From assembly GCA_018700895.1 (NCBI GenBank), contig JABIUV010000028.1, positions 1-60,015 of the forward strand: 60,015 nt of DNA, in the 5' to 3' direction. This DNA is from Bacteroidota bacterium (lineage in GTDB: Bacteria; Bacteroidota; Bacteroidia; NS11-12g; UBA9320). Both the position numbers and the translations under genes were made by a program. Position 1 is the first letter of the stretch; each line of letters starts with the position of its first letter. Below the pieces are notes generated by a model. That model was not told where the DNA came from. It was given only the letters and a program-made list of their open reading frames with translations, and searched no databases. This document shows positions 25,691-30,433 of the stretch, piece by piece.

Positions 25691-26581
25691 ATGAAATTTG
25701 GCAAAGTAGATAACCCCGGAGCATTAGACCTGAGTTTACCCTCAGACCATGCCGAAACTAAGCGAGTATTGGCAGCTGGCGGTTATACAGATAAAAAGCC
25801 TAAGGTATATGTAGGTTGCCCCCGATGGAGCAAAGCGGAGCTCAAGGGATTTTACCCGCGAGGCACCAAAGATGAGTTGACGTACTATTCCTCTCAGTTC
25901 AATAGTATTGAGATGAATGCCTTCTATTACCGGATTTTTCCTACGAGTACGGTAGATAAATGGTACGAACGTAGTGCGGCTGATTTTACTTTTTTTCCAA
26001 AGGTACCGCAGCTTATTAGTCAGTTCAGAAGACTCAAAAACTGTGAGAATGAGCTCAATGATTATCTCGTTAGTATCTCACATTTCAAGGAGAAACTGGG
26101 AACGGTATTTCTTCAGATGAATGATAACTATAACCCAAGCAACTTTGATGATTTGGCGGCGTTTGTAGAACAGTGGCCAAAAGACTTACCGCTAAGTGTA
26201 GAGCTACGACATACCGATTGGTACAACGACCCTACGGTGGCCAATAGGCTATATGCTCTTCTGGAGGAAAACAAGGTGTGCCATACCATTACCGATACAG
26301 CAGGTAGACGCGATATTATGCACATGCGATTGACCAATAATCAAGGTTTTGTCCGTTTTACAGGAGCTAATCACCCGAGTGATGTAGATAGATTAGACGA
26401 GTGGTTTGAGCGGCTTACAGAATGGAAGGAGCAAGGCATAGAGCAAATCAATTTCTTTATACATCAAACTGTAGAAAAAGACCTGCAAATGCTAAGTTCT
26501 CGCCTAATCTCTAAGATAAATGCGGAGTGGGGATACGATATGAAAGTGCCTGGTGGCGAGGTACAGGGGAGTTTGTTTTAG
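25691..26581 (+). CDS. DUF72 domain protein (YecE family)
   Basis: A 296-residue TIM-barrel-like protein of the DUF72/YecE family: VYVGCPRWSKAELKGFYP, QFNSIEMNAFYY, FPKVPQLISQFRRL, ELRHTDWYND and the final FFIHQTVE segment. The biochemical role of the family is unknown. It follows the membrane protein gene by about 50 bases without an evident terminator. Confidence 0.9.
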   Translation: MKFGKVDNPGALDLSLPSDHAETKRVLAAGGYTDKKPKVYVGCPRWSKAELKGFYPRGTKDELTYYSSQFNSIEMNAFYYRIFPTSTVDKWYERSAADFTFFPKVPQLISQFRRLKNCENELNDYLVSISHFKEKLGTVFLQMNDNYNPSNFDDLAAFVEQWPKDLPLSVELRHTDWYNDPTVANRLYALLEENKVCHTITDTAGRRDIMHMRLTNNQGFVRFTGANHPSDVDRLDEWFERLTEWKEQGIEQINFFIHQTVEKDLQMLSSRLISKINAEWGYDMKVPGGEVQGSLF

Positions 26582-26958
26582 TTCTGGGTGCATTTATTTT
26601 GGACGCAGTTAGGGACTGATTAAAACGATACACAAGCGCTAGTACAAGGTAAATTTGCATAATATCAATTCAATTCCTCAGAACTAACTTTTCTTTTTAG
26701 CTATTAGATGCGCTGTTTTATCGTGATGACTTTGAGCTAATTAAATATAAAAGCGACATCTTTAAGCATAAAAATACAGAATAAATAATTTTTTTTAAAT
26801 TATTTTTAGACTGGTAAACAACACAATACAAGGCCGTTAGCGGGAAAACAGATCTAATTCTGTTTTAACAAATACAAAGAAATGCAACAAAACCTTAAAC
26901 AAAATTAGGGAGATACAGGTTTAGTATTTATTATTGTTTAAAATTAAAATTAAAAATT
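26582..26958 (+). other. Long AT-rich 5' region of the rhodopsin gene
   Basis: No gene is seen in these 377 bases. A TAAATTTG box occurs at 26650-26657, about 300 bases before the rhodopsin start. The last 200 bases are strongly AT-rich and end in a run of AATTAAAATTAAAAATTATG. On the minus strand a TAATTTTG box lies at 26900-26907 but drives no visible gene. The start site for rhodopsin mRNA, possibly light- or nutrient-regulated, cannot be fixed by eye. Confidence 0.5.
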
Positions 26959-27693
26959 ATGTTATTAAATGTACTTACAATTCCGAAAGATGATCCAATC
27001 GCTTTTACCTTCTTTACAGGGTATATGGCAATGTTGGCAGCATCCGTGTTTTTCTTTTTCGAGCGTGGTAGCGTAGATGGAAAATGGAAACTATCCTTAC
27101 TTGTGTCCGGTTTAATTACTGGTATTGCAGCGGTTCACTATTATTATATGAGGGACTACTACATGGCGACAGGAGAAAATCCTACAGCATTACGTTACAT
27201 TGATTGGACGCTCACAGTGCCACTTATGTGTGTCGAGTTTTACTTGCTTACCAAAGTAGCTGGAGCCAAAACAAGTCTGCTTTGGAAACTAATCGCAGCT
27301 TCTGTATGGATGCTGGTGACCGGTTACATTGGTGAGGCATTTAATCCCGTAGGAGGCAGTACTACTCACTCTGTACTTTGGGGTTTCTTATCTACTTTGG
27401 GCTATTTATATATCCTGTATACTGCGTGGTATGGAGAAGTGGCCAAGTTGGCAGATAACAGTGGCGACGCAGCCGTTAAAAAAGGAGTACGCACGCTTGC
27501 GTGGTTCGTTCTAGTAGGATGGGCTATTTATCCTATAGGCTATATGTGTATGCCAGGTGGATGGTTAAACGTTGGGTTAGGATGGGAGTCTGCAAATGTA
27601 GATTTATTCTACAATATCGCAGATGCTATCAATAAAATAGGCTTTGGTTTGGTAGTATATTCTATCGCGATATCAGCCAAAAAGACGGCTTAA
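26959..27693 (+). CDS. Proteorhodopsin (light-driven proton pump type)
   Basis: A 244-residue seven-helix microbial rhodopsin. Key residues match proton-pumping proteorhodopsin: Arg79 and Asp82 (counter-ion and proton acceptor) and Thr86 and Glu93 (proton donor) in RYIDWTLTVPLMCVEF, the His60 that pairs with the acceptor, Asp222, and the retinal-binding Lys226 in ADAINKIGFG. The DTE motif indicates outward H+ transport. The spectral-tuning position (105 in the reference numbering) is Met90, the green-absorbing type common in Bacteroidota. The gene is followed by a strong terminator and then a decayed blh gene. Confidence 0.97.
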   Translation: MLLNVLTIPKDDPIAFTFFTGYMAMLAASVFFFFERGSVDGKWKLSLLVSGLITGIAAVHYYYMRDYYMATGENPTALRYIDWTLTVPLMCVEFYLLTKVAGAKTSLLWKLIAASVWMLVTGYIGEAFNPVGGSTTHSVLWGFLSTLGYLYILYTAWYGEVAKLADNSGDAAVKKGVRTLAWFVLVGWAIYPIGYMCMPGGWLNVGLGWESANVDLFYNIADAINKIGFGLVVYSIAISAKKTA

Positions 27694-27716
27694 TTCTTTC
27701 ACATTAAAAATATCTT

Positions 27717-27751
27717 TAGGGGAATACGACTGCGTGTTCCCCTATTTTTTT
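27717..27751 (+). terminator. Rho-independent terminator of the rhodopsin gene
   Basis: TAGGGGAATAC pairs with GTGTTCCCCTA (one wobble) around a 6-base loop, followed by seven T. It separates rhodopsin from the blh remnant. Confidence 0.9.
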
Positions 27752-27776
27752 ACTTTAAAAATTAGAACCACAAAAT

Positions 27777-28680
27777 ATGAAAAAACCACTGATAATGTTT
27801 ATTATACTCAATGTAGTTAGATATGCGGTGGATAGTATATGCGGTGGTCTTTCTTTAGAAGTACAACCAGCCATATCAGCTGGCTTGATTGCACTAGTAG
27901 GCATACCTCTTGGAGCAATCAATCACATCTTGTTTTTTGCAAAACAATGACGTCAGCAAGATAAAATTTTACGGAGGGTATTTTACTCTCATGACCTTAG
28001 TAGTGCTTGTTTGGTTTCTAAATCCTCTGCTTGGGCTAGTATGTTTTTTGGTGTTGTCCGCTTATCATTTTGGACAGTCACAATTTACCAAATATTCTAG
28101 TATCAGTCAATACAAGGCGAAATCTTTATACCTGACGTGGGGTGTTGCGGTCACATCGGGATTATGCTTATTTAACAACCAAGAAATACTAAATTTGGGT
28201 GCAAGCACGCATGATTTGTCAGATACACTCCCCTTATTTCAAGCTGACCTTTTTACTTGGTTATTTCTTATTTCGTCGTCATTATTTATAGTTATTATAC
28301 TTTCTATAGTGCCAGAAATTGGCTTGCATTTGATGCTTTTAGAATGTTTGATTTTCGGATTAATAGTTTTGTCATTATACGTACATTCTCTGTTAATTGG
28401 ATTTAGCATATATTTCGCAACGCTCCATTCTTGGAAGGTACTTGGCCAAGAGTTTCAATTTTTGTATTATCTGAATTACTTTTTGCGTAACCAACCTATA
28501 GGTTTTACATCTCCATTGGTCATAGAGAATTTGCCGTTGGCAGATTTGAGTTTGTATGTTCCCCTTGTCTTACCTTTTATTTTTTGCTGTATTACCTCAA
28601 CTGTTGTATCTCCAATCTTAGCTACGATTGCTACCTGTCCATATTTTGAGAGTGGGAAACAAACTAAGCCACCTACTTGA
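27777..28680 (+). pseudogene. blh: Decayed beta-carotene 15,15'-dioxygenase (Brp/Blh family)
   Basis: Blh splits beta-carotene into retinal and usually accompanies proteorhodopsin. Here the N-terminal frame (from ATG 27777) ends at TGA 27948. The rest continues in the +1 frame, and removing one T from the T6 run at 27933-27938 restores one protein. Conserved motifs are also altered. PHGAxDH reads PLGAINH (His to Leu, Asp to Asn), and the HSxxH pair reads HSWKV, losing the second histidine. SAYHFG and the LHS histidine remain. The final PH-type motif appears to read CPYFES. Several independent changes argue for real decay rather than one assembly error. Confidence 0.85.
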
Positions 28681-28718
28681 GGCTTCGTAGTGTAATCGTT
28701 GTAGTATTGGTACAGGAC

Positions 28719-28889
28719 TCATCCTTTTTTGAATTTGCCTTGTCCTGCAGCTATATTCCAAAAACATTTGGCGTGGCCGTAGGTATTAGGGAACTTATGC
28801 TTGTACACATCATAGTAGTATCTTTTCATAAACTCAACACAAAACAGTAACGAAAACCGTTGCAAATAAGGCAGCTTATACCACAGAAG
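28719..28889 (-). other. Open minus-strand remnant of unknown origin
   Basis: Within the gene-poor gap after blh, a minus-strand frame of 56 codons is open between two stops. It has protein-like composition (WYKLPYLQRF, MKRYYYDVYKHKFPNTYGHA, FWNIAAGQGKFKKG). An ATG exists at 28829, giving 36 residues. It could be the 3' remnant of a deleted gene. No family is recognised. Confidence 0.3.
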
Positions 28890-28957
28890 CTACAGTGCCT
28901 GCTCAGTACCACACTTCGATACAATTTCTAATTCCATTTCTCTCCATCAAAAATCAC

Positions 28958-29722
28958 TCAGTTTGACAACGTAATACCCACCGGGCAATGGTCGCTCCCA
29001 AAGGTGTCATTATCTATAAATGCATCAGTCATCTTAGGCATAAGAGTGTCTGATAACAAGAAGTAATCTATTCGCCATACCGCATTATTCTTTCGGGCAT
29101 TGAAACGCATACTCCAAAAACTGTACTTTACCTCTTCGGGGTGTAATTCTCTAAAGGAATCTTTTAGCCCTATACCTAATATGCTATCTAGTCCATCAAT
29201 CTCTACTTGTGTATAGCCACTTGTTTTATTATAGTTGCTTTTATCATTTTTGAGGTCTATGGCACGGTGAGCTACGTTAAAATCACCCGTAACGACAATA
29301 GGCTTTTTGCTTTGCAGATCATTTAAGTAATTTTTAAAAGCTTCATCCCATGTGGCTCTGTATTCGAGCCTCTTTAGGCCAGCACCACTATTGGGTACAT
29401 ATACATTTACAAGATAAAAATCGGCGTACTCCGCACAAATTATGCGGCCCTCATCATCGTGCTCGGCAATACCCATATCGGTTGTTACACAGATAGGTTC
29501 AGTTTTGCTCAGTATAGCTACGCCACTGTATCCCTTTTTGGTAGCAGAGTTAGAGTAAATGTGGAAACCATTGAGATCGGCAAGCGCCTCCTGTACTTGG
29601 TCATCTTGTGCTTTGGTTTCTTGCAGGCAATAGATGTCTGCACCACTATCGTTTATGATATCAATAAGTCCTTTTTTGACCGTGGCTCTTACGCCATTCA
29701 CATTCCAAGAGATGATTTGCAT
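28958..29722 (-). CDS. xthA: Exodeoxyribonuclease III (AP endonuclease)
   Basis: A 254-residue exonuclease/endonuclease/phosphatase-fold enzyme of normal length. ISWNVNGVRA, the metal-binding Glu in LQETKAQDD, VNVYVPNSG, TGDFNVAHRAIDL and the final SDHCPVGI match ExoIII/APE1. It cuts DNA at abasic sites in base excision repair and also trims 3' ends. It is monocistronic and divergent from the methyltransferase gene. Confidence 0.95.
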   Translation of the reverse strand: MQIISWNVNGVRATVKKGLIDIINDSGADIYCLQETKAQDDQVQEALADLNGFHIYSNSATKKGYSGVAILSKTEPICVTTDMGIAEHDDEGRIICAEYADFYLVNVYVPNSGAGLKRLEYRATWDEAFKNYLNDLQSKKPIVVTGDFNVAHRAIDLKNDKSNYNKTSGYTQVEIDGLDSILGIGLKDSFRELHPEEVKYSFWSMRFNARKNNAVWRIDYFLLSDTLMPKMTDAFIDNDTFGSDHCPVGITLSN

Positions 29723-29788: not shown

Positions 29789-30433
29789 GTGGATATACTA
29801 AACCAGCTTAAAAATATAGACTTATACCTGCTCGATCAGATAATGAAAGGGCGGCTTAATGCATCAAGCCGTATACTGGATGCAGGTTGTGGCGAAGGGC
29901 GAAACTGCCACTTTTTGATAGATCAAGGATGTTCAGTTCTTGGAATTGATCCGCTGCCTGAAGCTATAGCAACGCTCCAAGAGGTGTATCCTCATTTGTC
30001 AGAAGAGTTTATAGTATGTGCTATAGAAGATTATAAAACGGAAGAAAACTTTGACTTTATTATTTGTAATGCGGTTCTCCATTTTGCAGAATCGCATTAT
30101 CAGTTTCAGTGTATGATGGCTGCTTTGGCTAACCTTTTGACCGAAACGGGTGTGTTGTTCATACGTATGACATCGGATTTTGCAACTAGTATGGCTTTTG
30201 TATCAGATGAGAATGGTCGTGCTGATTTGCCCGACGGAACCAATAGATATTTAATGACAAAGAGTGAATTGGTGAAAGCGATGAATGAGAATAAACTTCA
30301 CTTCGTAGAGCCGCTCAAAACCATAAATGTGGATGACCAACGCTGTATGTCAACCTTGGTACTTTCCAAAGAAGCAAAGGTAGCACTAGATATAGGGTGG
30401 CTTGACCTAAGCCAAAATCCTATGATGCGATAA
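29789..30433 (+). CDS. Class I SAM-dependent methyltransferase
   Basis: A 214-residue Rossmann-fold methyltransferase. Motif I is ILDAGCGEGRNCHFL, followed by the acidic GIDP and the post-motif FDFIICNAVLHF. The GTG start gives an N-terminus (MDILNQLKN) suitable for the fold. The substrate is unknown. The gene is close to tellurite-resistance/ubiE-like small methyltransferases in overall look, but this is not diagnostic. Confidence 0.85.
   Translation: MDILNQLKNIDLYLLDQIMKGRLNASSRILDAGCGEGRNCHFLIDQGCSVLGIDPLPEAIATLQEVYPHLSEEFIVCAIEDYKTEENFDFIICNAVLHFAESHYQFQCMMAALANLLTETGVLFIRMTSDFATSMAFVSDENGRADLPDGTNRYLMTKSELVKAMNENKLHFVEPLKTINVDDQRCMSTLVLSKEAKVALDIGWLDLSQNPMMR

Follow-up and report, generated by a model that had tools for sequence, protein, structure and literature searches.

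A proteorhodopsin gene beside a decayed blh in a Bacteroidota bacterium whose genome also encodes a seemingly intact CrtY-Blh fusion

The DNA analyzed here, 60,015 nucleotides long and hereafter called the window, corresponds to positions 1-60,015 of the forward strand of contig JABIUV010000028.1 from an aquatic Bacteroidota bacterium (GCA_018700895.1), whose draft assembly comprises 59 contigs and has a completeness score of 100%. It carries a proteorhodopsin gene, a terminator-like hairpin, a decayed blh gene and the remnant of a CHAP-domain gene, with a DUF72 gene to their left and an exonuclease III gene to their right. These features are listed in Table 1 together with two loci found on other contigs, C1 and C21.

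Table 1. Features of the rhodopsin locus and of the related loci on contigs C1 and C21.
Feature	Location	Strand	Remarks
DUF72 gene	window 25691-26581		left border of the inserted block
Inserted block	window 26582..28957	.	rhodopsin, dead blh and CHAP remnant
Proteorhodopsin gene	window 26959..27693	+	244 aa, intact; DTE motif and Schiff-base Lys; Pfam, PDB and dN/dS
Terminator-like hairpin	window 27717..27744	+	12-bp stem, loop of 4, T7 tail, -19.6 kcal/mol; between rhodopsin stop and blh start
Decayed standalone blh	window 27777..28464	+	T6 frameshift, PHGAxD changed to PLGAIN, C-terminus missing
CHAP-domain gene remnant	window 28479..28829	-	internal stop; matches Pfam CHAP slightly below the curated cut-off (E=2e-5)
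Exonuclease III gene	window 28958-29722		right border of the inserted block
CrtY-Blh fusion gene	C1:296-2293		666 aa from ATG 296, apparently intact
Locus L094 (G000:C21)	C21:7309-10700		CrtYcd in the crtI-crtB-crtZ cluster

The rhodopsin belongs to the Pfam family Bac_rhodopsin (PF01036; E=4e-43), and the nearest solved chains in the PDB are proteorhodopsins (1.5e-75). It contains D82 (the Asp acceptor), T86, E93 (the Glu donor) and K226, to which the Schiff base is formed, and on this motif it is predicted to be a light-driven proton pump. Comparison with its nearest relative, the 92% identical rhodopsin of genome G023, gave a dN of 0.078 and a dS of 2.1, values that show it to be under purifying selection; dS was mostly saturated in the rhodopsin comparisons, and this pair alone is quoted. 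A search of all 59 contigs found one rhodopsin only.

The DUF72 and exonuclease III genes are directly adjacent, with a gap of at most about 60 bp, in 17 of the 19 relatives compared, and the block of rhodopsin and pseudogene that lies between them is therefore an insertion in this lineage. Target-site repeats were looked for at its borders and none was convincing. The CHAP match was obtained with the full remnant, a partial peptide giving none, and no close copy of the remnant occurs among the fetched loci. Further to the right, a methyltransferase-like gene (29789-30433, plus strand) separates the exonuclease III gene from a GreA-like gene; it is found only here and in G023, whose counterpart is 53% identical, and a wider gap between the exonuclease III and GreA-like genes also occurs in G016 and G029. 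Given these differences, the neighbourhood of the two genes looks like an insertion hot spot.

The blh copy in the window is genuinely a pseudogene and bears several lesions. Read from the ATG at 27777, its frame runs ...LVGIPLGAINHILFFAKQ and ends at a stop at 27948, and Blh homology picks up in a different frame 3' of the T6 run at 27933-27938. The catalytic motif PHGAxD, retained in nearly all Blh examined (28 standalone and 95 fused), reads PLGAIN, with Leu in place of the His and Asn in place of the Asp; these two residues are among the three positions broken by the window copy out of 24 columns that do not vary among twelve intact relatives from its clade. Moreover, Blh homology stops at 28464 (tblastn), and about 70 C-terminal residues, including PHxxxM, are missing in all three frames, a region present in 26/28 standalone and 94/95 fused Blh. 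The CHAP remnant occupies the place of the missing C-terminus and overlaps the end of the open frame read as blh. Since homology ends at 28464, the C-terminus is absent and the antisense CHAP remnant occupies 28479-28829, the portion 28465-28680 of that frame is not blh. Three marks of a functional Blh, namely a single open frame, PHGAxD and PHxxxM, are thus all lacking in the window copy. The remainder of 27777-28464 is open in two frames and not grossly eroded, and for this reason the inactivation is probably not very old.

These results bear on an original prediction made for this DNA, which had described a rhodopsin with Asp82, Thr86, Glu93 and Lys226 in place beside a blh decayed by a one-base frameshift in the T6 run, by the change of PHGAxDH to PLGAINH and by the change of HSxxH to HSWKV. 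The four rhodopsin residues, the frameshift and the altered PHGAxDH motif were all recovered, and the decay goes beyond what had been claimed, since the C-terminus is gone as well. HSWKV, however, must be struck from the list of lesions: in intact standalone proteins from its own clade the motif is HSMQV, HSYKV, HSLMV, HAFKV or HSFKV, and none of the standalone Bacteroidia Blh examined has a histidine at position +4 of the HS motif. The 66A03 enzyme requires His21, His78, His188 and His192 (review PMC9227343).

A search of the whole assembly turned up another Blh domain, on contig C1, as the C-terminal half of a protein whose N-terminal half is a FAD-type lycopene cyclase. The Blh half scores 108 bits against PF15461 (curated cut-off 28) and 131 against TIGR03753 (cut-off 95). 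The motifs HG..D, YHF, HS and PH, invariant in the alignment of such fusions, are all present (PHGAVDH, YHFAQ, HSRLGWRH and PHVIRM), as are the conserved cyclase positions. The cyclase half scores 153 bits against PF05834 (cut-off 23.4) and is a divergent member of CrtY because it falls below the stricter NCBIfam cut-offs for that family. The predicted structure of a homologue, L097 (mean pLDDT 89), consists of a FAD-reductase-like half and a helical half; no solved structure matching Blh or the fusion by sequence was found. Housekeeping genes, named from their sequences and including that for CTP synthase, lie on contig C1 as well, which is hence chromosomal.

Family searches placed the upstream pathway on contig C21, where crtI, crtB, a CrtZ-like hydroxylase gene and CrtYcd lie side by side. 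The genome thus encodes two unrelated lycopene cyclases, the CrtYcd of this cluster and the FAD-type CrtY of the fusion. The carotenoid cluster has a cyclase of its own, and the second one is tied to Blh. We propose that the fusion converts lycopene to retinal as a dedicated enzyme and supplies the rhodopsin of the window. A pump deprived of its neighbouring blh had been expected either to draw on a second dioxygenase elsewhere or to take up external retinal, and a genome search for another blh or brp, for crtY and for crtI had been proposed. That search yielded CrtY-Blh on C1 and crtI on C21, in keeping with the first expectation, and with the fusion in the same assembly the second is not required by the data.

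The fusion is widespread. A scan of 84,980 species genomes returned 259 relatives, 80 of which were kept as near-full-length matches and are by title nearly all Bacteroidota metagenome-assembled genomes; a few are titled otherwise, perhaps through mislabelling. A survey across the class showed Blh in a frame of 650-718 aa in 33 of 72 Blh-bearing genomes; this length serves as a proxy for the fusion, and the examples that were fetched were fusions. A rhodopsin gene is found within 4 kb in 36 of the 49 fusion loci with full flanks. The protein on C1 belongs to this large Bacteroidota group.

The two Blh copies belong to separate families. The Blh tree places the pseudogene of the window within the standalone clade (100/100) and puts the C1 protein in the fusion clade (100/98), as sister to the fusion of G028. 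Among the rhodopsins, the window protein and the one from G023 are sisters (97/93), and in G023 an intact standalone blh lies beside the rhodopsin. PyrG, exonuclease III and DUF72 group the organism with G015, G022, G023 and G027, and not with G028. Two retinal cassettes of different descent thus appear to meet in this genome, the opsin of one having been kept and its blh lost, and the enzyme of the other remaining. Two observations on relatives may be added. G024 has two rhodopsins, one (L085, G024:C176) beside a CrtY-Blh fusion and a divergent one (L051, G024:C44) on a separate contig. G017, which is devoid of any rhodopsin, shows a weak, stop-riddled PF15461 match (L076, G017:C275, 13125-13409), which could be fortuitous or mark another dead blh.

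The hairpin between opsin and retinal gene recurs at the equivalent position in 50 of 56 related loci, against 0.25 expected from dinucleotide shuffles; close relatives share stems, so that the 56 loci are not all independent. It accompanies 13/14 rhodopsin-blh pairs and 37/42 same-strand rhodopsin-fusion pairs, and is conserved in position, the stem sequences differing between groups. Its simplest reading is that of a device likely to yield plenty of opsin and little enzyme, which fits the weak expression of blh in Dokdonia PRO95 (PMC3587595). In the window, it would now merely end the rhodopsin message.

Taken together, these data make it likely that an inserted proteorhodopsin-blh cassette kept its opsin, that its blh died by redundancy and that an intact CrtY-Blh enzyme feeds retinal to the opsin in trans. 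The proteorhodopsin-blh cassette entered between the DUF72 and exonuclease III genes. The CrtY half of the fusion, a FAD-type lycopene cyclase, would make beta-carotene, and the membrane-borne Blh half would cleave it into two retinals. Retinal would reach the window opsin from an enzyme encoded on another contig, and the standalone blh, redundant beside the fusion, would have lost selection and then decayed because retinal was supplied in trans. The death of blh is on this account the ordinary loss of a redundant gene, and judging from the genes present, the organism has very probably kept the ability to form retinal itself. The sequences show the lesions, the fusion and its unbroken frame, the upstream pathway genes, the insertion and the separate family membership of the two Blh copies; the activity of the fusion, its supply of this opsin and redundancy as the cause of the decay are what we infer.

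The most serious alternative, which we nevertheless consider unlikely, is that the fusion serves a second rhodopsin lying in the gap to the left of C1, the window rhodopsin being an unsupplied relict nearing decay. In the closest relatives of the fusion (G028, G018, G020, G021, G024 and G025), a rhodopsin gene lies about 310-420 bp away in divergent orientation, and on C1 the fusion sits about 300 bp from the left end, so that the contig stops before such a gene could appear. A left neighbour was sought with the end sequence of C1 and only C1 itself matched; C1:1-260 does not resemble the sequences that separate rhodopsin and fusion in relatives. Against this alternative, a single rhodopsin is present in an assembly scored as complete, and the window rhodopsin is intact, is under purifying selection and has kept its own terminator. 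Besides, retinal in the membrane could serve both opsins anyway. It is less probable still that the organism cannot make retinal and imports it: the opsin-linked blh is dead, and rhodopsin-bearing bacteria without blh do exist, some of which respond to added retinal (PMC7734400), but an intact CrtY-Blh frame and a full carotenoid pathway are found in the same assembly. Finally, homopolymer runs are error-prone and 27777-28464 looks otherwise conserved, yet a misread T6 run in a truly intact blh is scarcely credible and is refuted as sole cause, because one wrong base cannot remove the C-terminus, in whose place unrelated antisense sequence stands, together with the catalytic H and D.

Cassettes of rhodopsin and blh are already known, as is their exchange. 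The present arrangement, with probable supply in trans to an inserted opsin, can be set beside several described systems. The cassettes of marine flavobacteria such as Dokdonia PRO95 and MED134 (PMC3587595) likewise place a rhodopsin beside a standalone Blh (PF15461/TIGR03753), whereas here that blh has died and a fusion encoded elsewhere in the genome is the retinal enzyme. The Brp/Blh beta-carotene 15,15'-dioxygenase 66A03 (PF15461, TIGR03753) shares its family and the HG..D, HFG and HS motifs with the fusion on C1, in which, however, Blh is fused behind a CrtY cyclase; most fusions read HSxxGWxH. In the protist Thecamonas trahens, a four-domain CrtI-CrtB-CrtYc/d-Blh protein (PMC10016063) also unites a lycopene cyclase and a C-terminal Blh in one chain, but there the cyclase belongs to the heterodimer type (CrtYc/d), accompanied by CrtI and CrtB, while the bacterial fusion has two domains and an unrelated FAD-type CrtY (PF05834). 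Aurantimicrobium minutum and Rhodoluna (PMC7734400) likewise have a rhodopsin without a working retinal gene next to it; they are without any known blh, unlike the present genome with its fused one. No description of a two-domain CrtY-Blh fusion in bacteria was found in the open-access literature searched; the fusion of Bacteroidota may be described in other papers.

More tentatively, and as a possibility that we rate somewhat below even, CrtY-Blh could be a retinal synthase, widespread in the Bacteroidota and as yet undescribed, that is dedicated to converting lycopene directly into retinal for rhodopsins, apart from the beta-carotene handled by CrtYcd and CrtZ. It would move between species in opsin cassettes in which the hairpin sets the ratio of opsin to enzyme, and the window would be a snapshot of the displacement of standalone blh.

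For the biology of these organisms, a rhodopsin whose adjacent blh is broken need not be a pump without pigment. Judged by gene neighbourhood, this organism would be annotated as reliant on external retinal, whereas the genome as a whole encodes a fused enzyme in trans. The hairpin conserved between the opsin and enzyme genes would be a simple and testable device for setting an expression ratio, and the two-domain CrtY-Blh protein, common in aquatic Bacteroidota, provides a case in which the hand-over of substrate in the service of phototrophy can be tested.
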